This document shows positions 3,225-47,400 of a stretch of 64,000 nucleotides of DNA, one piece after another; the first letter of the stretch is position 1; the number at the start of each line of letters is the position of its first letter. The notes below the pieces were generated by a model that was not told the origin of the DNA, ran no database searches, and worked only from the letters and a program-made list of their open reading frames with translations. This stretch comes from Antennarius striatus (lineage: Eukaryota; Chordata; Actinopteri; Lophiiformes; Antennariidae), in assembly GCF_040054535.1 (NCBI RefSeq), contig NC_090795.1, positions 4,377,501-4,441,500 of the forward strand, in the 5' to 3' direction. A program made the position numbers and the translations under genes.

Positions 3225-5135
<1,911 letters not shown>

Positions 5136-14319: not shown

Positions 14320-20880
<6,561 letters not shown>

Positions 20881-23289: not shown

Positions 23290-26200
23290 TCAGCTGGAGT
23301 CGAGCTCCTTGTGTTCTGCAGCTTCTACGATGGGCACGTTGTAGTGGCGGTCGTCCTCCGTCACCAGGCACACCGACGGCCAGTCGTCCTTGTGGTCGTC
23401 CGGGTAGAAGGTGACGAACTCCTCCGTGTCGGCCTTGTATAGTCTGTAAACTTGAATGGTGCACTGCAGGGCGTAGCCCAGCAGGAACATCTCCACCTGC
23501 ACAAAAAGATAGCAGATAACTGCACCGTCAGGTAAACGCCTCAGCTGCTCAAACATATGATATTTACGGGTGGGGTTTCATTACCCAGAACACACCCTGC
23601 TTAACTTAAAAGGGTGAAAAACAGCAATTAAATCACGTGGCTGCATCCTGAAACTGCTGCAGAATCAAAACAGCACACGCTGCAGCATGTTTTACTATTT
23701 AGGTTACGAATGTTCCTCCTGCTCATGAAAGAAAACACGAGCTGCTGCCAAGGAGGCCGCGTTGGTTCCTAGGTGTGTTTCCAGGCAGGATTGCGTAAAA
23801 ACCACAGAGTGGATGATGCTCGTTGGATTATTCCAGTTTATGTTGCAGAAATTCAAAAGGACAAGAGAGTCCCAAAAGTTCTAAGTGTAGTTTATCTTAA
23901 AAACAGTCACGTAAACAACCATTAAACCCTGTAAAACACAGCATGTCTTTAACTGCCTGTGATCATCTGCCCTACCTGCTCCAGCCCGGCGCTGAGGCCG
24001 ACATGGCTGAGGTGGTTGGAGAGGAAGGCGTGGGGGCAGTCGGACGAGTCCCGAGCGAACAGCAGCCAGCAGAAGAGCGGTACGTCTTTGCCGGCCTGCA
24101 TGCGGCCGTGCAGCTCCGCCGCTCTGTCCAGCATCAGCAGCTTCATCGCCTCCAGCAGCGCCAGCTCCTCTTCTCCTCCCTGAAACGCTCGCTCGCACAG
24201 CTGCTGCCGCTCCGCCACGGAGGAGCAGTTCACCGCCGCCTGCCACTGGAAACACATGGACGGAATCATAAATGGATTTGCTGATGACATCATTTTCCTA
24301 TAATCTTTGTCCTAACACAGTCAAGGATGGAGTATTTAAGGTCAGGCCATCAAAGAGAAGCTTAAGACCAAACGTTTTCCCCAGGCTGATCCAGATTCGT
24401 CTGGAATATTCTGCATTCCCTGCATATTCCTGAACATTGGTTCACATAAAAAGTGTTATTTATGGAGCCAGTGCACAGCAGGACACCAGCCTGTCTACTC
24501 CTAAGTTCAACTGTATGGGAACTATAAGGATGTCAGGCACAAAATGTAAACAGAAGGTCTCATAAAGCCAAAGAGGTCCAGAAAAAAAAAAGAAGTCCTT
24601 TAAAGACCAGAATTCCTCACAAGACACCAGCGGAGGCGAAGGGCAGTAAATCCCAACTGGCTCTTGCTCTGTCACAGTGAAGAGACACTGTGGGTTAAAC
24701 AGCTCAAAAAAGTGTTTCTTTGATGCTCCATCCATCACTGCTAATCCTTTAGCGCATGCTAAGTTCCTCTGTAAATGGCACACAAACAAAAGATGGAACA
24801 GTGCAGCATTGTGGGGAACGCCGCCGCCCTTTACCACATGGCAGTAATCACATCTAAAAGCTGTGTAGAGCATCAATACCCTCAGTGTACACGGATTGGA
24901 TAAATGTAGAGCTGTGGTTTACTCTTGACTCTTTAAAATACTTTCTCGTGCGTTTCTGACATTTCCAGTCGGTACCTTATTTCGGAGAAGCTCCACGTAG
25001 CCTTTCAGCTGCAGGGTGGCGTCACCCGTCCCCCCTCCCTGCAGGCATTCTCCAGGAAACGTCCAATGACTCACGAGACCCTCGAGCTGATCGGGCAACT
25101 GTCAACACAAAGGAATGAAATGAGATGTGGACATCAGAACAGGAAGTTGTACTTCTGGATGTAGTTTTGTGTCATTATTTAACCTGCTTGATGTTGAACG
25201 GGTCTTTTAAAAATTTAGAAGGAATTTTAAAAAAGTGTTTTTTGCAAGGAAATAACCAACAAGTGTGTTCATCCGCTCTGCTAACTGGACTAACAACCTG
25301 AGATACTTCTTAGACTAAGGAGGATTTATTAGCCAACGCTGGAGACTTTGTTAGGTCTGCACATCAGCCATTAACTCACTGGCTTCCAATGACGTCAACG
25401 AGGAGGGGGCTGAGGGACAGTCTGGCGGAGCTTGTCAGTGAAAATCAGGTTCTAATCATTGAATTTAGTGTAATGACGACTGATCCAGTTACGGAACAGA
25501 GCACAGTGAATCAGAGGAAGATGGAGAAGTTACAGCAGAGTTTTCGGATGTCAGAGATCTGTGATGAAATTCAACAATAAGGCCGTTCTGGACTTCCATG
25601 TCTTCTACATGGACCAATGACTGACTGACTTGATCTCATTCAACACAATATAATAATAAAACATTAAGCCAAGGGGTTTAAACAAGGAGTAACCACAGCA
25701 ATAAAACTGTCCTCTTAATGCTGTGTCTCATTTGTGTCTGTGTCTCAAGTGTTTCTGAGCCACGGAGACATGGACTCAGGCCCTCTGGGAGCCCCGTATT
25801 ATCTGACACCGGGCTTGTCCAGCGAGTGTGTACCATAGAAATGTCGTCCTCCTGCAGCCATAAGGGAAGCCGGGTGCTCTGGGTGAGCACCTGGAACAGC
25901 GTGGCTCTGAGGGCGCAGTAGTTGTCCCCCCTCACTCGCCTCAAACTGCTGAACCTTTGGGACATCTCCTTATAACCCTGCAGCAGTAGCAGAGACAGGA
26001 CAGGAAGTCTCGGTCATTAAGGTGGACGACAGGAGCTTCTTTACTGGAGGAGCGACAGACACACTGACCTTTCTAATGAGCGCACTCTTAGCAGTGTTTC
26101 CTCTCCATTCTCTCTCGCTGTACGACAAAATATCCATCGCGGGGGCCAAACTACATCTGTCCTCCAACTTTAAGGCTGATCAGGATCGAGGAGAGGGAGA

Positions 26201-29200
26201 GGAAAGGATGAAAAAACCAGAGAAGAAGAGTAAGAAAGCACTCTCACTCTTCTTTTTATGTCTGTCATGCATAGATAAAAGAAAAAGATGGATTGTGACG
26301 TCACTTTGGAGGAAGAGCGGAGCATGTCCCGAGACAGAAACAGAATTTTAGAGATTCGGACAAAGGAGCGCACATCATCAGAAGTCTGACACTATTTAAA
26401 TGGCGTACACATCCTGCTGGAATATGGATTAGGGTTTAATTTACTTAAAATAGATCGGCGAGTCGTGGCGGCGGTATAAGCTCTACAGAGATAGGAAGCA
26501 CCAAGCACACATAGCTAACAGAACCGGCGCAGACAGGCTTATGAGACACTATTCATCTTGATTATGGTTCTGGGATGTAATGAATCGAGACGATGCACTG
26601 ACATGTAGTTTCTAGCAGATGCGGTGGTCCTGGTTTATCTTCTTGCGATGCTGACAGCTCCTCAGCCCCTCGGTACAAGTCTTCTTCACTAAAAGGACAA
26701 AAAAGAAACATCGGCAAAGATTTACGTTTTCCTTATTGTCAACACATCCAACCAACAAGTAAACGTCACTGAGCCTCACGGCTACACAGTGTTCCTTCCT
26801 TCATGAGCACACTAGGTTACCTCGGGTCGGTACCAAATGTAACGTGACGTCCCCAAACTAACAATGATTTAAGGATGGAAGTAGTAAACAAAGAATATAT
26901 TAATTAGAACCAGTTTGAATTAAGTTTTTTTTAAAAACCAGCGCCTTCCTATATGAAGAAAAGAACAGGCTTCCAAAAACAATTTTAAAATATAGATTTT
27001 GCCTGAAAACTTAGTTTTATCCCGGTAAACTGACAAATATTCTTTAGTTTATAGACTAAAAGTGAAAATGAATATTTATAATAATGTTAGTTGGGATAAT
27101 TACGTATGAGATCAAAACAATCATAACTAACCTGTTGCCAAGGAGATCTTCAGCAGATTCCTGTTCCTGTGCCACAGAGATCTCCTCAGGCTTCCCACCA
27201 GCTGGTGAGCTCCCTGCCAGCTGCTCCTCTTTCCCAGTCACCTCCTGGATCTCAGCGTCTTCCCCAGCCGCACCTCCGGCCTCCGTGGGAGCCTTCATCG
27301 CCTCTTCCTCCTCCGTCTCATCGATCTCCTCCGCGGTGGGAGCGTGTTCGTCTTTGCTGCGTTCCTTCTGTATAATTTTCTCACTGCTGTCCTGCTGGAG
27401 GTTCTCGGAGGAAGTGACCTCCGTGGTCGTAGGAGTGCCAGAAACTTCTGGTTTCGCATTCTGATCGGACTCAGAGCTGGAGGGAGAATTCACCTTTGTT
27501 ACTTTTCCTCAGCAAGACACATTCATCAACACTTTTCTATTTATGTCTACATATTCTGAAGCTGGAATACTAAACACTTCATGTTTGGAGTCAATGAGAA
27601 GCTCACTTAGCTGATACAAACTAGCGATGTTTATACGCCCCCTGGTGGCCACGAGGAAGCATAGACACAAGTCACAATCTGAACTCACTCACCTCTGGCT
27701 CAGATCCTCTAGGGCTGGGATATCGGCCTCCCCTGCAGAGATCCTGGACCTTTGCTCCTCACCACCGTCACCGAGTCCTGTGGGATCTGGTCCAGACGGA
27801 GACTCAGAGACATCATGGCTTCTTACCAGTTCAGAACTGCACTCCTTGCACCCTAAAGACTCCAAGTCCTCCGGTCCAGGACTAGACACAGGAAGTGAGG
27901 GGAGAGACAGTTATTTCTAAAGACGCCACTGACCGTACAGAAGTAGAATAGTTTATGACTATATATCCAGTATCGCTGGAGTTTCACAGTGATAAATGTC
28001 TTTAATTATTAACCTCTCAATTTAATTTTTAAGTGCAATGCTGAGGACAGTAACTTCAATTAACTCAGACGCGACTCGAGGTTATCGAGTTTTCTGCAGA
28101 AGATTACGCAATGAAAATGTCAGGTTAGGAGCAGCAAAATAAAACATTAGCATCCAAATCTTACACTATGGTGGCGAAATGAGCCAAGAGGGATTGGTGA
28201 CGGCAGTCTAGTCGTGTGTTCTCTACTTTTTTTACAGGACAATGTATTATGGGAATTGCAGGTTAAAAAAAAAAAAAAAAAAGATAGAGAGAAGGATAAT
28301 ATTTTAAAGATAAATCTACATGGTTTAAAATCAGAACAGTTTGAGAAGAAGGGGTCACTTTGCCACTACTTGCCATATATAACAGCTAGAATGGATTACT
28401 CTTCTTAGAGCCATTAACTAGTCCCAATTCACAACATAACAGCTGGTTGCAGACAAGTTAAGTTGTTAAAAATAAACTGGAACATGAGTGAATAGACAGA
28501 AAGATATTCATAAACTGTCTAGGTAATATTCAACGGGATATTTTTAATGTTGTCCATTTCTGTGTTTTTTAGCTTGCAATATGAGAAGAAGAAAATCTTC
28601 ATGTGAACCTAAGAGACAAAACTGTCCAAAAAAAAGACGAGCAAATTCTGGTTTCATTTTGTTTTAATCGTCCCTCAACTGTCACATTACTTTGACTTAA
28701 AACATTTTTAAAAATAGAAGAGCAGATGATACGAATAAATATACTGCTCTGCCCCTGAGGTAAACGCTCCAGCTCAGACTCATGATATGTCAGTGCATTT
28801 TATCTAACCAGCATCCAGAACAGGAACTTAACAGTTTGTTTCCACGTGACTCACCAACTCTGAGACTCTGCGTCGATCTCCTGACTGACCACAGAGATGG
28901 GTGATAACTGACAAACTGCTGCAGGGAGCTGAGTGTTTGGCACAGATAACACTTCATTATGTTCACTGTTGTCCCCTGATGACTCCGTTACGCCGCTGTC
29001 AACCTCGGGGCTCGCAGCATCATCGTCTTCATGAGTAACGGCCGATGCGATGTGCTCTCCTGCTTCTGTCTCAGTATGGTTTTCAGGGTCGGATGTCTCG
29101 GTTGTGAGCGAGCTGATTTTGAGGGTTTCGTCCTGAGCTGAGGCGGCATTTTCTTCTTCTAGCGTCGTTGTAAAAATCTCCCAATCACCTGTGGTGCTCT

Positions 29201-30002
29201 GTTTCTGCAGGGAGTTGAAAGTGCATTGCAGGAGATCTGCCTGTACGCTGTCTGCAGGAATGTCCTTTATTTCTTCATCTTGTGCTGTGATGGAGTTTTC
29301 TTTCAGCTCAGGCCCTTTCTCTGGAGGCAGCATCGTCGTTTTTACATTGACCTCCTGCAGGGGTCCATTCTCCTGCGTGTTATTCGGCTCCGTCTCACCA
29401 TCCTCAGGGCTCTGCTTCACCTGCTCAGCTTCGGCTTTCATCTCCACCTTCATATTCACCTCATCAGGTGTTATCCTTAGTGCCAGAACACAGACAGGAG
29501 GGATATGTCACTGGCCTTCAGTAATTTGTTCTATGTGTTACAGCTGAGCATAATAACTAGGTAAAAAAATAAAGGGGTGCTCATGGGTAAATGAAGTTCC
29601 CTTGTGTTGTCTCTACAGTTCAGTCTAAAAGAAATAATCAACCATGTCTCCTGCTCCCTGACAAACATCTGGAAGCTGAGCAGGAAAGACTAACAACAGA
29701 AAGACATTTTCTCCTTACAAACTTTGACATATTTTATTGACAGGTTTAGCCTAGCTTCTCCTTTTTGCACTAACGTTTACATCCCATCACTGTGTTAGAA
29801 AAATTTTAGGCTAAAGTTCTCCACCAAAGCCATCATAACCGAAAGGGTCACCTTACCTCATACCATCATTCTCTGGGCCACATGTTCCCATCATAACCTT
29901 TTCTCCCGTGGGCATGGCGGCCTTCGAGTCTCCTTTCAGGAGGACACTTTTCTCCTCCTCGCTGCCGCAAGGACTTTCGGCATGACAGCAGCTGCTCCCC
30001 AT
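23290..30002 (-). CDS. otulin: OTULIN, linear (Met1) ubiquitin-specific OTU protease, with long acidic N-terminus
   Basis: Ten coding exons: 30002-29857, 29475-28855, 27881-27693, 27476-27132, 26688-26603, 26175-26069, 25977-25834, 25098-24976, 24245-23976 and 23496-23290. All phases fit, giving about 745 aa if every exon is used; human OTULIN is 352. The core is intact: a PUB-interacting motif [11 protein letters not shown] (Tyr about 439) for binding HOIP; EWRGN with the Trp used for linear-ubiquitin selectivity; catalytic Cys about 519 in [13 protein letters not shown]; and His728/Asn730 in EDDRHYN. This argues for active OTULIN, not the Cys-less paralog OTULINL. Known role: removes Met1-linked chains made by LUBAC and restrains NF-kB inflammation. 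The start is the first in-frame ATG after an upstream TGA and has a good Kozak context. The C-terminus (ELDSS) lacks the hydrophobic class I PDZ ligand of human OTULIN. The acidic N-terminal half has no domain I recognise. Confidence 0.92.
27132..29475 (-). other. otulin: Three symmetric phase-2 exons coding the acidic N-terminal extension
   Basis: Exons 29475-28855 (621 nt), 27881-27693 (189 nt) and 27476-27132 (345 nt) are each a multiple of three and flanked by phase-2 introns. The encoded segments are rich in Glu, Ser, Thr and Pro, with little hydrophobic content, so they are probably disordered. All junction codons formed by any combination of skipping (AGG, AGT, AGC, TGT, TGC) are sense codons. 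Confidence 0.8.
27636..27651 (-). promoter_or_regulatory. CTCF-like motif in otulin intron
   Basis: The minus strand reads TGGCCACCAGGGGGCG, an essentially consensus CTCF core. It lies in the intron between the second and third acidic-region exons, about 40 bp from the donor at 27692. Confidence 0.6.
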
Positions 30003-30191
30003 CTCAAACCAACTGCTCCCTTTGCTGGGGAGGACGGATGGGTCGTAGGCTGAATGGTGACCTCTGGTCGGAATCGCCCGCAAGCGACCTGAGGAGTCCC
30101 TGGATGAGGCTTCAGGAATCCATGACGGCAGCGGTCAAGCCGCTGCTAAAGGCGGGACGCAGCCATGTCTGTCTTGCAGAAATGTTTATAC
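30003..30191 (-). other. otulin: otulin 5' UTR part of exon 2 with two short uORFs
   Basis: A minus-strand acceptor (polypyrimidine, then TTTTTTAG) ends at 30192, opening an exon that runs to the start codon at 30002. It contains two short upstream frames, 30166-30146 (six residues, MAASRL) and 30123-30112 (three residues, MDS). An in-frame TGA lies upstream of the main start, which supports initiation at MGSSCC. Confidence 0.5.
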
Positions 30192-30579
30192 CTAAAAAAG
30201 ATCAAGAATGCATGACTAGGAAAAAAAAATAAAATAAAATTGTAAATCCCAAATTGGAATTTTAGCTAAACAGACATTTCTGTCAGTACACAATAGAGCC
30301 ATAAGATAATCATAAAACTTTGGTTGTAGAGAATAATGTGAATTGTCATGTCAGTGCTGTGATAGACTTGTTCAAAAGGTTTATGTGTCCACCTTTCTAT
30401 TTTTGGCCACATTTGAAAAATAGTTTTGCTCATTTTTAATGCTTGAAATCTACATGTAGACCAGGCTTTACAGCAATTCTTGACACATGAATTGCTGTAA
30501 AGTGAATGATCGATCAAAAACAGCCCATCTATTTCACGTCGTCAAACAGGATTGACCTGTATGACCACTGGCAGACATA

Positions 30580-31480
30580 GTGGCCCCTGCGTCACGTGAC
30601 ATTAGCCAGGGCCCATAGCAGTCAATTGAAATCAACGCAGACCGGGGCCAGACTAATTAATGAACTCATAAAATGTCATTTAGGTGTGTCACGTGATACG
30701 TTTATGGCGCTTTCGTTTTCGTTCTGGCTTTTTCTTTCAAAAAGGTGATTAAACGAAGGTAATAATAACAGTTTCTATGGAGATAAACACAGGTTGTTTC
30801 TTTCATACGACGCAAACAACGGATAAACACAACTACACATTTTTGAACGCTTTCTCGTGTATACGGTCAGCACATTTCCGTAACAGCCCACAAAAAGGAC
30901 AATATCTAAATATACAGAAGTCAAAATACAGTTTGTGGTGACGCACTTCTACAAAAAACATAACGTAACATAAACCCCCCATTTACAGTATGTGTCGCAC
31001 CTGCTACTAGGCTGTCACAAAATACATCTACAATTAGCTAACATCGTTCCTCAGCCTCAAGTAACGACACTGACAGCACATTTCAGACAGACACAGAGCT
31101 GTCACCGCCTCGTCCACACTGACAAAGAAAACGTACCTCGGTTGGCTTCAACTAGCAACGAGGTCCGCAATCATGTAGCACCGAGTCCTGGTTCAGCCCA
31201 AATTAGCTAGCCAGCTAGCTGAGGTAAACTTGAAATACAAACATGCGCAACTACTCGTAGCCAATCACGAGAATCACTGCGGCCACACCGGTTACCGGCT
31301 AGAATAAATAAATATTTATTGTGGCTGACGACCCATTTCACGGACAACGAGTTTTCTTTAGTGCACTTTATGCGGAATATCTATATGAAGAGACCCCTAG
31401 CATAGAGGGAGCAGCAGGTCACGGCACGGTCCGAGCGAATGACGTCATAGTAATGCGCATTATGTGGCGTTCAATTGATC
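30580..31480 (-). promoter_or_regulatory. otulin: otulin promoter region and probable noncoding exon 1
   Basis: On the minus strand a strong donor CCGAG|GTACGT at 31137 can close a noncoding exon 1 that would splice to 30191. It carries a possible eight-residue uORF (31174-31148). Upstream are a CRE palindrome TGACGTCA (31440-31447) and the 12-bp palindrome TAATGCGCATTA (31451-31462), NRF1-like in its centre. In intron 1 lie a GTCACGTGAC E-box palindrome (30591-30600) and another TCACGTGA near 30690. Start site not fixed. Confidence 0.45.
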
Positions 31481-31977: not shown

Positions 31978-33215
31978 TTAAATGTTCTTGAGCTCCTGTA
32001 TATGACTGATCAGCTCCTGTGGCAGTCCGAGTTCTGAAACTAGATCCAAGCAGCGCTGCACAAGGTAGTTCAAGTTTTCACTTCTGCTGGAGGAGCAATT
32101 AGTGGAAATGCAATGGGGCTTTGGTTTTTGCTGAGGAACATCCAGGTCCATTTTTTCTCCTCCCCTGCAGCAGTTGGCTTCTTTACATCCCTCTCCACAG
32201 CAACCTGCATCTCCAGAGCAGCCTGACTCTTCCTGCTTCACCCCCAGATCCTCTATGCCCTCGGAGATGGAGGTCACACTAGGAGGAGGATTTTCCAAAG
32301 CCTTTTTGAGGCCGTCCACGATTGAGTCTTCATACAATGATACCTGCTGCAGAAGGTCAGACACTGAGGCTGGAATGGCACTTTCCGGATGTTGGATCCG
32401 GCACCAGCAAGATAGAGCACTGTGACATGTCACACAAAGAGACAACAGTGTTAGATACAATGCCACAGAACACAGAGAAGAGAGTGAAAATAAAAGCTTT
32501 CAGTAATGACCAGAACATTACGACTAATGATCGTTCTGTGCAGGAAAGAGGTAGAAATATTAAATGTAAGAGTTGTTTTTTTCCCAGGGATGCAAGGAAA
32601 AACTGAAAGTCAGAGTAGGAAAGTTTATATGTTTGTTTATAGCCACTCTGGGATCCTACAAAAAGTGAATCAAATAACAATACCCTTTGTCAAAATATGT
32701 AATTAATATTGAAAAACAAAAAAAAGCATGATAATTCTCAAACACAATAATCTCCCTAGTTGATGCTTATCGATTCCAACAATAGAATTCACGGTATGGT
32801 TGATATTTAAAAACCAATACCAGGACATAAAAAATAAATAATATTGGTTTATGTGATGACATTGAACATATCGGATAAACTCACCTCAGCATTCCTTTGA
32901 GACGCCCAACAGCTGCGGTCTGAGCTGCTCCCTCCAAGAAGCCCATTCTGAAGCCGACCTGCAGAAAGGCGTCCTCCCCGACGTCAGCTCCGTCCACATA
33001 CCCGTCCTGCCCCGACGGGAAAAATAAATTTAGTCTGGCAGACACAACTAACACGTACGGGGTATCCGTCAAAAACACGCGAGGATCAACGTGAGGCTCA
33101 CCCGATGTCGCCTCTTCATGCTGCTCGCCCACTCTTTGCTCATTAGATTCAGATCATCTGCGTTCTCATCGAAAACATCGTCCCCACTGTAGGAAACCGA
33201 TTTAACCCACGCCAT
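31978..33215 (-). CDS. yae1: YAE1, adaptor for Fe-S cluster delivery to ABCE1
   Basis: Three exons: 33215-33102 (38 codons), 33006-32885 (ends AG) and 32419-31978, giving 225 aa; human YAE1 is about 226. The N-terminus MAWVKSVSYSGDDVFDENAD resembles the family start. Exon 2 encodes the deca-GX3 signature (GYVDGADVGEDAF, then GFRMGFLEGA), and the junction gives GRLKGMLSALSCWC, equivalent to the family GRLRGTLSALLSWC. YAE1 with LTO1 links the cytosolic Fe-S assembly targeting complex to ABCE1, needed for ribosome recycling. Odd: a Cys cluster (GCSGDAGCCGEGCKEANCC, about residues 148-166) in the usually poorly conserved C-terminal part. It is in tandem with otulin, whose promoter lies just downstream. 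Confidence 0.95.
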
Positions 33216-34401: not shown

Positions 34402-34514
34402 GTGGCCCGCAGGAGAACTGAGCAGGAGCGCCATCAGTGACGATCCTCAGAGTTCAGAGACGCCGGTCGATCACATTTACCATCATCATATACACCAACT
34501 TATCTCTCATCAAC

Positions 34515-34521
34515 ATCATCG

Positions 34522-34607
<86 letters not shown>

Positions 34608-34608
34608 G
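34515..34608. repeat. (ATC)n microsatellite
   Basis: About 94 bp of nearly pure ATC trinucleotides. It gives long Asp or Ile pseudo-frames that are not genes. Confidence 0.96.
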
Positions 34609-34619
34609 ATGTCATGCTG

Positions 34620-37600
34620 CTTTTTCATCACTGTAGCAGAATTATTCAATATTTCGGGGGTATGAACAATGAGTATTATAAAATAAATGAAACACAAATT
34701 AATTTTTCGTGCTTTTTCACATAAACTTGCGAAAACAATAGCAACCAATTGAAAACTCTGGATTGAGTGATCTTTAGGGGCCGCAGAAAGCAAACAGGAT
34801 TGACGGTTTGATTCACATTCTTTGATAGAAAAACTCTTAAAAACTGTATATAGTCACTGAATTGTTTTTTTTTAAATTTAAAAACATAAAGCTGAAAACT
34901 GAAAGTCAAAAAATAACTGAAAATAATCCAAACAAATGTAACCTAAATGTGGAATGTATATTTACATCTGTGTCTATTTGATGACTGCAGCTGTAATAAA
35001 AGGTAATTAAATACCATTTATTAAGTTTAATCAAATACAGATTGAAGTCATTAAATCTTAAAACTGTTCTGGTCAGAGTCAGGTCACCAGGATGTCAGAA
35101 ATCACATCAGTTGTTTTTTTCCCCGCATGTTTGGTGCAGCTTGAATGCATCAAATCGCTGTCCGGTGCATCTTTACAGCTTCCTGTTTAAGTTTTCAACA
35201 TAGCAAATGTCATCGGTCATGACAAACACATTATTCACTCATCAATAATGCATCCTTCTGCTTCCTTTTTCCTCACTCTTAGGTAAAAGAATGATGGATT
35301 TTGTTTTCAGATATTCTCATTCTTCATGCCATGCTTCCTGGAGCACACAGGAGAGCGGAGTCGCTGGGAGAATGCCTTTCACCTTGTTGGAAGACATTTG
35401 CAGCTGCTGGACAACAATGGCCTTGAGACCACTCAAAGGCCATGGTGGAGTTGCTTCTGTTCTGGAAATGGAGGCCTCATTCATGGCAGCCACACCTCGA
35501 GTCCCCTCGCTCGAAGAGTCAAAACAAGCAACCGGGGCAATCACCTGACACATTTCCATCCAATTTCCACTGCAGAATGTGTTCATTTTCAGGCTAATGG
35601 CATGTCATTTTGCTGGAGCCTTTGGTCAAGAATTAATCCTGGAATCAAAACAGATTTTCCGGGGAGCAATCTTCCATCAAGTATTGATTTTTTTACACTC
35701 ACGGAGCCTGTACTCCCTAATTTAACCTGACAGCCAAGCAGCACAATGGACTGGGAGCACCTTGGCATCTCACAGAGGGAGCTCTCCTCCTCCTCCTCGT
35801 CTCCATGAAGTGAAAGAAAGATTGGGGTGGAGGGAGGGGGCAGAAGAAAAAAAGGTCTCCCATATGTATAAAACAAAGAGCAATGCTTACAGAAAACATC
35901 GAGATAAAGCATCCGTCCCTCAGTTTTAGCTCTAATTATGTTTTCTAGTGCGGCGCGACTTGGGCAGGTAAGGCTGAGAGGGAAAAGGGGAGAGTGTTCT
36001 GGGGCCATCAGCTATCATTATGTGCCTGTTGACATCTCCCTGTCTTTGAGTGATTCTCAACTGTGATTTCCCCTGGCCATTTTCCACAGATGTACGAAGT
36101 GGGGTTTCATCACGGCCCCCGTAAAAAAAAAGAGAAAAAAAAAAAGACCCTCACTAATAAGAAAGCAAAGATGTGTCCGATCATGTCACTCCTCTCTCAT
36201 CCATATCTGCTCTCTTAGTGCCTTCAGAGATGCAATCACTCTCCTTTCCCCTCCCCTTTCGCGCTCTCTGCATGTGCTGTAAGTATACTATACTGTATAT
36301 GTAGAGGTCAATGGGATGAGAGGATGATGAAGGGCAGGACCAGTTATTTTCCTGCAGCTCTTGAAGCAGCGGTGACCCGTGTGCAGGAGGGCTGCACTTT
36401 GCCAAAGGGTTTTACATGAGCTGCTTACAAACTACCTGACAGGAGGAGAAACTATTTCACTTTCATCTACTTTCAAGCAGTAATCTTCGATTTTCAGGAG
36501 ACACGAGTGGTGATAGTTGTAATATTTTACATTTAAGTAGAACGTTTTCAAAATACTTTAAACAGTAATGAAGATGTAGAGGACTTTTTTCCAACCACTT
36601 TAATGGAAAGTAATCCTTCAGGTTATCAGAAAACTTCATCAAATCTGGAGACACTTGAGGAACTCTGGGTGAGAACAGCTCCAAAAATGTCATCATGAAA
36701 CTCAGTAAAGTTGTCGGACAAATATAGTCGAGGAAAGAGTGCATGATTTTTATCAGAGATGCAGCGGAATAAAAGTTTTGTAAGATTGAAAAACCAGTCG
36801 TGTGACCTTCAAACTCTTCATCACCGGTGTTCTTTTCACATCTTCTTCCGTGGTATCTTCCAGGTTAACTGTAGCTTCAAAGTTCTAATGTTGGTCAAAT
36901 ACGTTGATCTTCAGGATGTAGAAAATTTAAATCCTTTCCAAAGTTTCTTGTAAAAGTAGATCCAGTAGCACTTTGATGTACTAAGACAGTGATTCCTAAA
37001 CATTTCCACTTGTGATGTAAATGAATGAAAGAAACAAAGGTGTCTGCAAAACTAGTACTGCAGAAAATATAATGTTTCCAGGATGATTAGCAAACCCGAT
37101 TAAGATCCTTGAGCCTTAAAGATGCAGATTCTTCTAGAAGACATACTTAACTTTAATGACTCCAAGTTCAATATTGTGAATTATGCAAAATCAATGATAC
37201 AAACTATGTGATCTAGAGACGGGTTAACGGCACTGACCGATATATGTTCCCAACTCTTGACCTTTGACCTACCCTTAACCCATCCTCCCACAACATTTTA
37301 TGTTTCACAAAAGACCCGAAGCAGCTTCAGATCATAATCAGCTCATCCTGTGATGCACAAATACAATCAGGCACAAGATGACAGACAAACAGAAAAGCTA
37401 ATAAATGTCGGTGTTTAAACTCCAATTCCTTCATAAAAACACCTTTGATGCTCAAGGTCAAAACAAAGAGAGTCATCATTCTTTCTTTACTATCAGCACA
37501 AAGGTATTGACTGAAATAACTATGAAATAAACTATTTAAACTATTCTCTGACATACAGTGTGATCTTTCAAATGGATTTTTTTTTCCTCACCATGTCCTT

Positions 37601-44417: not shown

Positions 44418-47400
44418 TCATTTTGGCAGCTCCTCTAGAGAATCGGTGAGAGGGTCCATCGCTGCAGCCGGGCCGAGGTCGGGCTGTTTCAAACGTTTTA
44501 TTGTGTTTTTCAAGGCTTGCCTCTTGTTGCAGAACCAGACTCGAACCACCTCCCTATCGTAGTTCAGTTTTTCTGCTATTTCAGTCATTTCCTGTCCAGA
44601 GGGGTGTGTGTTCTTCTCAAAGTGGCTGTTGAGGATCTCAAGCGCCTGTGGGGTGAAAGAGGTCCTCCGCTTGCGTTTTTTGGAGGGCTCGCTGCCGATA
44701 AACTCAGTCAGGTTCTGCATGCCGGATCGGTGGCGGGCTTCAGCCTCGGCCATCCAGCGCTCCAGAACGGGCTTAATCTTCTGGGCGCTTTTAGGGGTGA
44801 TGTCCAACTTCTCAAACCTGGCAGGATATAAAAGGCCAGGGTTCAGTTTGCCTGTCAGACTGCTACCTATAGTGTTCTCTTGGGCTTCCTGTGGTAGGAA
44901 AAAGTGGCTTCTCAGGATGGTGTGTCTGGGGAGAATTGAGAAAAAAGAATCTTACTTAGGTGCCCTGCCAGAACAAGGGATAAGCTGCCTTTCTTTTTGT
45001 CTCCTCCACCAGAATGCCACAGGGACTGAGACTAACATCCAGGTACACATCCAAGCCAAACTCCTCTGTATTCTGCACCTGGAAACACCTCAGCTGCAGC
45101 AGCTGGAGGAGATGGTTTCCAGCAGTGTGTTAATTTTCTGGAGGAGGCTCTGGTTCTCTGTCCCAAATTGGCAATAGTGGAGCAAGGAGATGTTCCAATA
45201 ACTAAAATCAGGTCCAGCTGAACCAAAAACATATCAATCATCTACCTAAATGTTTTTAAATTCTGGAAAAAAAATCTCATAAAAACAAAATGAAACAAAA
45301 GCACAAAATATGTAATTTCTTTCATCAGGTGAAAAACAAAAATCCACTAATGCAATACGGCACCATGATTTATTTACAAAAAGAGCTTCCATTATTCATC
45401 AAAATGTACATTTAATACATTTTTCAGACTTTCTTTCATCCCCTAACAACATCTCATTTTATATTTAATAAGAATACATTTGCACACTCTGATCCTTTCT
45501 GCAGCTTTACTGCTGCATGACTCATAATTCTGACTTCACCTCTTCTAGGCCTTTTAGGAAGTCACAGCAGGAATGGAGAATGAAGCTCAACACAGAAACG
45601 CTGTGACTCTTGTCAGGTGCTCTGAACAGTTTGTGGCATTACAATTTAAAACGATGAAGATGACTGTCTCAATAACTTTTATCTAGCTTGCTTGTCTTTT
45701 GGCAACAAATAGGTAAGAATATTATTTCTCATAATATGTCAGAGATTAATTACATCCTGGTTTAATTAAACACTAAATTTCACAATTTCAGATTTTATTA
45801 TTGACTGATGGATTTCTGAGGACAATGATGATGTTAACATTTGAGTAAAATTATTTTTTATACAATTTTAGATTTTAATTGTTGCCCTTATTCAATAGCT
45901 GATGAAGTAAAAGCTATCGGAGGAGGAATGACAATCTTGGCAGTCCCATACTGTCACCTGAATGCACCATAGGTTTCTTTTGCTAACAATATCTTAATCT
46001 AACATTTCTAGAATAAAAAAGTTTAGTTAATCTCATGATCCTTAATTAGACATCAAGTTTAGTTAAATTCTGTGTTTGCTGGGTCAAACCCGGTATAATG
46101 TCTTTAAATGCTTTTAGTAAAATAAAATAACTAATGTAAAGGCAGCAGAGCTCTGCAAAGGAGTGGCTGCTCTCTGCGGAACAAACAATGCACACGAGGC
46201 ATTTTTAGTGGCGAGTCGATCGGCTGCAGACAGCGAGGGCGAGATGCCCGTGCATGCATGAACATCCTCCGTTTCTACACCTCATTGGTGCTCCCTCCTT
46301 GTCGACAGGAGGTATTATTTATAACCCTTCTCTTAAGCATTGGAAAGAGGAGGGCCTCACAGGGCAGGGAATACATTAGTAAATATGAGGAGCCACCAGA
46401 GACAGGACATTTCATGGATCAACAGGAAGCACGGATACTAAAATGAGTTGAGAGCTGCTCAGCTGGGGTATGCAGGAGGAAGTGGCCCTGAATGCACCTT
46501 CAGCCTCTCTGGCTTGTCTCTAAAGTATCTTAGGATGCTGCTTGGACTTCTGTGCATTTAGGCTCACAGTCTCCTTGAGGGTTCACTGACAAACCAGAGA
46601 GGCCTGTGTTTAGGGGTTTGTGCTTGTATGCATCTAAAATATACTAGAACGGGACACACAGTAGTGCTTTTTGACTGCAGTACAATCAGTTAAACGTAAT
46701 GAACTGATGACTGGTTGGTTGAACTTTGGTGAAGAGTCATGGCTCTGTTCCATTTGTCATATAGACGTTTATTGAAAACAGTCAGGCCATAAAAATACAT
46801 ACAGTAAGATAACGTGATTACATTACACTTTAGGCCATAAACTGTTTGTATTGTGACGTCTTTATGACCACATCTATTTATATTACTCTGAAAGCAATGT
46901 GATAATGAAGTACCGTTACTGGTCAGTTGTAATGGGATTACTCAGACACACGTTATCTGGTTATTTTACGCACAAACAAGTTCTAATTTGACTGATTTTA
47001 TACATTTACATAGAGACAATGAGTGTTTCACTCATACTGCTCAGTACAATAAAATAAAATAAAATAATACATCTTTAAATATATTTTTAGTTTTTAAAGA
47101 AGAAAAGAAAAACGAAAAACTGTTGATCTTGTTTTCTGAAGTATTAGCTGTTTTTAATTATGAATGTATTCTTAAAGAGATTATCAAATCAAATATCTGT
47201 TCGACCTAATTGCTGGCTGTAGTTTAAAGAGCCAATGTTTCTGTGGTTGATTGTATATTTAAAATTATTTTTACAGATTTAACCAATGAGAACAACACAC
47301 TTGGTGTTCATAATGAAGCAGAATTACTAACACATTATTAAACAATGTACAGAAACAAATTATTTTCTGATTATACTTTCTCTTTTTTATATTCATGTTA

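Follow-up and report, generated by a model that had tools for sequence, protein, structure and literature searches.

The otulin gene of Antennarius striatus carries three exons, E2, E3 and E4, that on a comparison of exon maps are extra exons at the position of human intron 1, without human counterpart. We give a probability of roughly 60% to the reading that these exons are mostly constitutive, and would form an acidic tether linking an N-terminus of myristoyl type to a unit made up of the PUB-interacting motif (PIM) and the protease. The gene lies on the minus strand of the 64,000-nucleotide stretch of DNA analyzed here (the window). It has ten coding exons, and all nine introns are GT-AG (9/9):

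30002-29857, minus strand: E1, first coding exon, 146 nt; phase 2 out; strong donor GAG/GTAAGG.
29475-28855, minus strand: E2, 621 nt, phase 2-2, 207 aa; acidic, probably disordered; weakest of the nine scored acceptors.
27881-27693, minus strand: E3, 189 nt, phase 2-2, 63 aa.
27476-27132, minus strand: E4, 345 nt, phase 2-2, 115 aa, Glu-rich.
26688-26603, minus strand: E5, the PIM exon, 86 nt; phase 2 in, 1 out.
26175-26069, minus strand: E6, start of the catalytic domain, equal to human exon 3; carries the Met86 equivalent.
25977-25834, minus strand: E7, 144 nt, phase 0-0; catalytic Cys (human C129); a symmetric control exon.
25098-24976, minus strand: E8, 123 nt, phase 0-0; a symmetric control exon.
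24245-23976, minus strand: E9, 270 nt, phase 0-0; its first residue is the Trp equivalent to human W199.
23496-23290, minus strand: E10, last coding exon; catalytic His and Asn; C-terminus KELDSS.

OTULIN cuts linear ubiquitin chains in immune signalling and so restrains LUBAC. Judged from its sequence, the gene is fish otulin, as the first-pass annotation had named it, and belongs to Peptidase family C101. The protein matches the Pfam profile Peptidase_C101 (PF16218) at 4.5e-130 (433.3 bits, against a curated cut-off of 27), and nine of its ten distinct PDB sequence matches are FAM105B/OTULIN, the tenth being FAM105A. The best of these, 4ksj (2.7e-83), extends over aa 469-734, and the catalytic domain has 135 identities to the OTULIN fragment in 262 aligned residues. 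The equivalents of C129, H339, N341, D336, W96 and E314, which we take to be residues of catalysis or chain recognition in OTULIN, are all kept (6/6). E5 opens with EEDLYR, the counterpart of human EEDMYR at 52-57, which confirms the earlier placement of the PIM in the exon next after E4; binding to HOIP is predicted from this motif. The human PIM EEDMYR 52-57 has been described as invariant (PMC4017264). The PIM peptide by itself found no match in PDB.

We searched the 548-Mb assembly (42 contigs) for further copies. The PF16218 profile returned four exon matches, all in otulin, and missed E8. Searches with the E7 and E9+E10 peptides recovered this otulin only, apart from one match on C3 (E 8), taken as chance, and the E2 peptide had no match elsewhere in the genome. 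A single Peptidase_C101 gene was thus found by a search that short or diverged copies could escape, as the missed E8 indicates. If the count is right, any short OTULIN must be a product of this same gene. Among bacterial genome contigs the E7 peptide gave 584 pattern stretches, and among viral contigs there were 60 for E7 and nine for E2; none was confirmed. Elsewhere in the window, Pfam matches mark myc (3228-4991), ankh (16623-16994) and a POU-homeodomain gene (44421-44951), and a Yae1-type gene at 32884-33153 scores 26.4 bits, just below the cut-off of 27.5. In human, too, ankh and otulin adjoin. A long run of Asp codons at 34503-34853, in a minus-strand frame without gene signs, is probably a microsatellite.

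The human exon map can be drawn from published variants. R57C was confirmed via exon 2 sequencing, which puts R57 in exon 2 (PMC13414579); M86 is assigned to exon 3 and W167 to exon 5 (PMC8899767). A new acceptor within exon 6 is reported to delete 195 nt, W199-R263, from which exon 6 would begin at W199, and an exon 7 reverse primer in the same paper, read as coding IPVRVCE, would make exon 7 the one that encodes the C-terminus (PMC12643120). Aligned with the human protein, fish E7 and E8 begin at human positions 109 and 157, and the first residue of E9 falls exactly on the W199 equivalent. By this alignment fish E5-E10 are human exons 2-7, and it is this map, together with the start of E9 at W199, that leaves E2-E4 without a human counterpart. 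The form that skips E2-E4 altogether is 360 aa long, and the first-pass annotation was right that this is near the human size. As a hint of alternative splicing, however, the likeness does not hold up: the short form is human-sized because human OTULIN lacks E2-E4, with one exon before the PIM as against four coding exons in the fish. The exon map explains the resemblance, and alternative splicing is not needed for it.

E2-E4 are real exons with a coding look. Dinucleotide shuffling leaves the used frame free of stops in 1/2000 cases for E2, 144/2000 for E3 and 62/2000 for E4, and the remaining two forward frames hold 2 to 17 stops. Third-position GC of E2-E4 (0.52-0.62) is closer to that of E1, E5 and E6 (0.34-0.60) than to that of E7-E10 (0.66-0.89), and neither helps nor hurts the case for coding. 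The first-pass annotation had the three exons exactly, as 621, 189 and 345 nt, multiples of three with phase-2 junctions. All four junctions from E1 to E5 are at phase 2 (4/4). Its claim that every subset keeps the frame without junction stops also proved correct: all eight inclusion patterns of E2, E3 and E4 are open to the terminal stop (8/8), with lengths of 360, 423, 475, 538, 567, 630, 682 and 745 aa, the last being the full form. The residue at the junction varies with the pattern (GM-R-ITP, GM-S-EED), and no stop is created. Skipping E5 alone breaks the frame.

The further step, from symmetric phases to skipping, is weak. The gene has eight internal coding exons, of which E2, E3, E4, E7, E8 and E9 are symmetric, and all 64 subsets of these six are open and in frame (64/64). 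Some two thirds of the catalytic domain, the catalytic Cys included, is encoded by E7-E9, yet these exons are as symmetric as E2-E4. Vertebrate intron phases have frequencies of 0.47/0.31/0.22. At these frequencies, four given introns share one phase by chance in 6% of cases and are all phase 2 in 0.2%. Among simulated genes with eight internal exons, 23% contain three or more symmetric exons in a row, and 4% have six or more symmetric exons of eight. Since the catalytic exons are equally symmetric and symmetric runs are not rare by chance, frame preservation of E2-E4 permits skipping and is not evidence of it.

The strongest alternative to mostly constitutive inclusion is a regulated cassette, in which E2, E3 and E4 would be skipped singly or jointly according to tissue or stimulus, giving the 360-aa form along with longer ones and so tuning the tether. 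We regard this as possible but doubtful. The eight open subsets allow it; given the single C101 gene found, this gene would have to be the source of any short form; disordered segments are reported to be frequent in tissue-specific exons (PMC3437557); and a reviewer's remark in PMC6335736 holds that the majority of skipped exons overlap with disordered regions. Against it stands the same frame symmetry in catalytic E7-E9. Splice-site scores (weight matrices, ranked among 487 GTs and 570 AGs) bear on both sides. With a score of -2.27 the E2 acceptor is the weakest of nine and comes 169th among the 570 AGs, and intron 1 offers five AGs with scores above 4; the E4 acceptor region is only 42% pyrimidine. 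The weak E2 acceptor and this low pyrimidine content would suit a cassette. The weakest donors of the gene, however, belong to core exons, E7 (-1.7) and E8 (0.28), and weak sites are for that reason no marker of skipping here.

The donors of E1, E2, E3 and E4 rank 2, 5, 1 and 11 among the 487 GTs. GAA/GAG density, a crude proxy for splicing enhancers, is 0.064-0.102 per nt in E2-E4, against 0.034-0.104 in the other exons (E1 0.104, E6 0.095) and 0.028 in pooled introns. Strong donors and this density would favor inclusion, although the rise in GAA/GAG is not specific to the cassette. Splice-site strength does not decide between skipping and inclusion. Splicing control of E2-E4 is possible, its only grounds being the permissive phases and one weak acceptor, and if splicing does vary, we judge E2 the likeliest exon to do so, since no acceptor of the gene is weaker. 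On balance we expect mostly constitutive inclusion of E2-E4, as a judgement rather than a measurement. The weak E2 acceptor and the better AGs of intron 1 weigh on the other side of this preferred reading, and real splicing there could be different. One of these five AGs, at 29556, is an acceptor-like site stronger than that of E2; joining the E1 donor to it would give an in-register longer E2 with two in-frame stops, a possible nonproductive-splicing switch.

Upstream of E1 the window holds short ORFs at 30123-30213 (MAASRL, MDS and possibly MHS) ahead of the E1 ATG, which leaves some doubt about the start codon of E1. A noncoding 5' exon upstream is suggested by two acceptor-like sites, 30215 and 30191, together with a donor-like one at 31137.

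The 385 aa contributed by E2-E4 are negatively charged throughout, the net charge being -36 for E2, -11 for E3 and -23 for E4. Charge-hydropathy analysis classes E2, E3, E4 and E5 as disordered; E1 lies barely within the folded region, the catalytic part deep within it. AlphaFold2, run on the E2 sequence alone, returned a mean pLDDT of 37.8, with a single weak helix spanning E2 residues 77-91. As models built without an alignment are often poor, this result is no more than consistent with disorder. Together these values bear out the earlier description of the segment as acidic and probably disordered. E1-E4 matched no known Pfam domain at E up to 10. The one PDB match of E2, to beta-agarase B (E 0.43), was taken as chance. 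Exon duplication was considered as an origin and dropped: in ten pairwise protein comparisons among E1-E5 none was beyond chance, the best pair, E1-E5, being equalled by 95 of 500 shuffles. At the DNA level, repeats are confined to short two-copy matches (four direct families and four inverted pairs) and three minor tandem rows.

The 385-aa segment has only three aromatic residues, at aa 135, 147 and 150, all in E2. Such clustering is matched by 0.4% of random placements, in a test made after the clustering had been noticed. The stretch around them, aa 130-152 of the long form (29166-29234), is a possible docking site. The most hydrophobic 19-residue stretch of the segment lies apart from it, at aa 227, and is nothing out of the ordinary, being equalled in 224 of 1,000 shuffles.

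Of the twelve short-motif patterns scanned we took seriously the PIM and the myristoylation pattern, and weakly a DSG motif. The latter is DSGVTES at aa 208, in E2, of the type DSG.{2,3}[ST], the pattern of beta-TrCP phosphodegrons; a motif of this type appears in 5.6% of shuffles of the segment. It lies within the top PEST-like stretch of the protein (score 19.2, aa 198-220, E2). By the scoring scheme used there are 18 PEST-like candidates, seven scoring above 5, of which six lie wholly in E2-E4 and the seventh across the E4-E5 junction. One could accordingly picture E2-E4 as an instability segment whose PEST-like stretches and phosphodegron make long OTULIN short-lived. We consider this quite unlikely, as the DSG motif was one of twelve tried and occurs in shuffles as well, and acidic, Ser/Thr-rich disorder often looks PEST-like whatever its role.

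Least likely of all, if only slightly, is a wrong gene model, with E1-E4 or part of them in a separate transcript, or with another acceptor between E1 and E2 and a translation start inside E2: the weak E2 acceptor with better AGs upstream, the short ORFs before E1 and the in-frame Met codons found early in E2 would fit, but four successive junctions of one phase run on one strand and in frame into the PIM exon, E1-E4 carry no known domain of another gene, and the E2 peptide is absent from the rest of the genome.

The E1 N-terminus, MGSSCCH, matches a myristoylation-type pattern, with Gly2 and nearby Cys; we take the pattern to be of the PROSITE type. As a sequence pattern, then, the lipid-type N-terminus of the first-pass annotation is there, and its two Cys could be palmitate acceptors. 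At the other end, KELDSS (23290-23330) is no class I PDZ ligand. In tetrapod OTULIN the PDZ ligand ETSL is described as conserved and as binding SNX27, with a second interface through E85, D87, D90, E209 and R345 (PMC6754446); in the fish protein only D87 of these is kept, and four of five are changed. OTULIN is reportedly recruited by SNX27 to the TNF receptor complex, which is membrane-associated (PMC8314547), and the ETSL tail has also been discussed as a ligand of SCRIB (PMC10445738). We did not count a class I PDZ ligand as defining for fish OTULIN. A swap from a C-terminal adaptor to an N-terminal lipid is conceivable. The fuller version, in which the sole OTULIN of this fish lineage has switched its membrane route, with the SNX27 motif gone and a lipidated MGSSCC plus a tether of splicing-set length in its place, strikes us as improbable. 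Anchor and PIM would then stand some 48 to 433 residues apart, which a scaling law converts to roughly 5 to 20 nm, and if this switch were true, one gene would yield short-reach and long-reach linear-ubiquitin proteases.

Under mostly constitutive inclusion, E2-E4 would be present in most transcripts and the protein would be of 745 aa. A long, disordered, acidic tether would then part the lipid-type N-terminus from the PIM and protease, the LUBAC-binding protease would thereby sweep a larger volume around its anchor, and the aromatic cluster of E2 might serve as a docking site. A human variant that breaks only the PIM contact of OTULIN is reported to cause disease (PMC13414579). The 385 extra residues right before the PIM suggest that the distance from the N-terminus to the LUBAC motif is evolutionarily free. 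If splicing varies the tether, the gene would be a natural test of whether reach or anchoring, not catalysis, sets OTULIN output; if E2-E4 are constitutive, they are ordinary disordered exons of the kind met with in signalling proteins.

OTULINL (FAM105A) is membrane-associated. It has the same C101 domain (6drm, 4.7e-58) and is inactive according to its PDB entry, whereas the Antennarius striatus protein keeps the catalytic residues. Zebrafish otulina is likewise a fish otulin gene, and F0 mutant females are reported to be subfertile in a paper on egg quality (PMC6631549). The 'a' of its name suggests a second zebrafish copy, as against the one C101 gene found in Antennarius striatus. Among the titles and abstract starts listed from the open-licence literature, none dealt with isoforms or exon structure of fish otulin. 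Like the tissue-specific disordered exons described in PMC3437557, fish E2-E4 encode what is predicted to be disordered sequence of a signalling protein. With human OTULIN the fish gene shares the catalytic domain, the key residues, the PIM and the exon layout of E5-E10. It differs in three extra exons (385 aa) ahead of the PIM, in a lipid-type N-terminus, and in a protein without the ETSL PDZ ligand and with one of the five second-interface residues for SNX27. With its E2-E4, this otulin is an anatomical variant of OTULIN.
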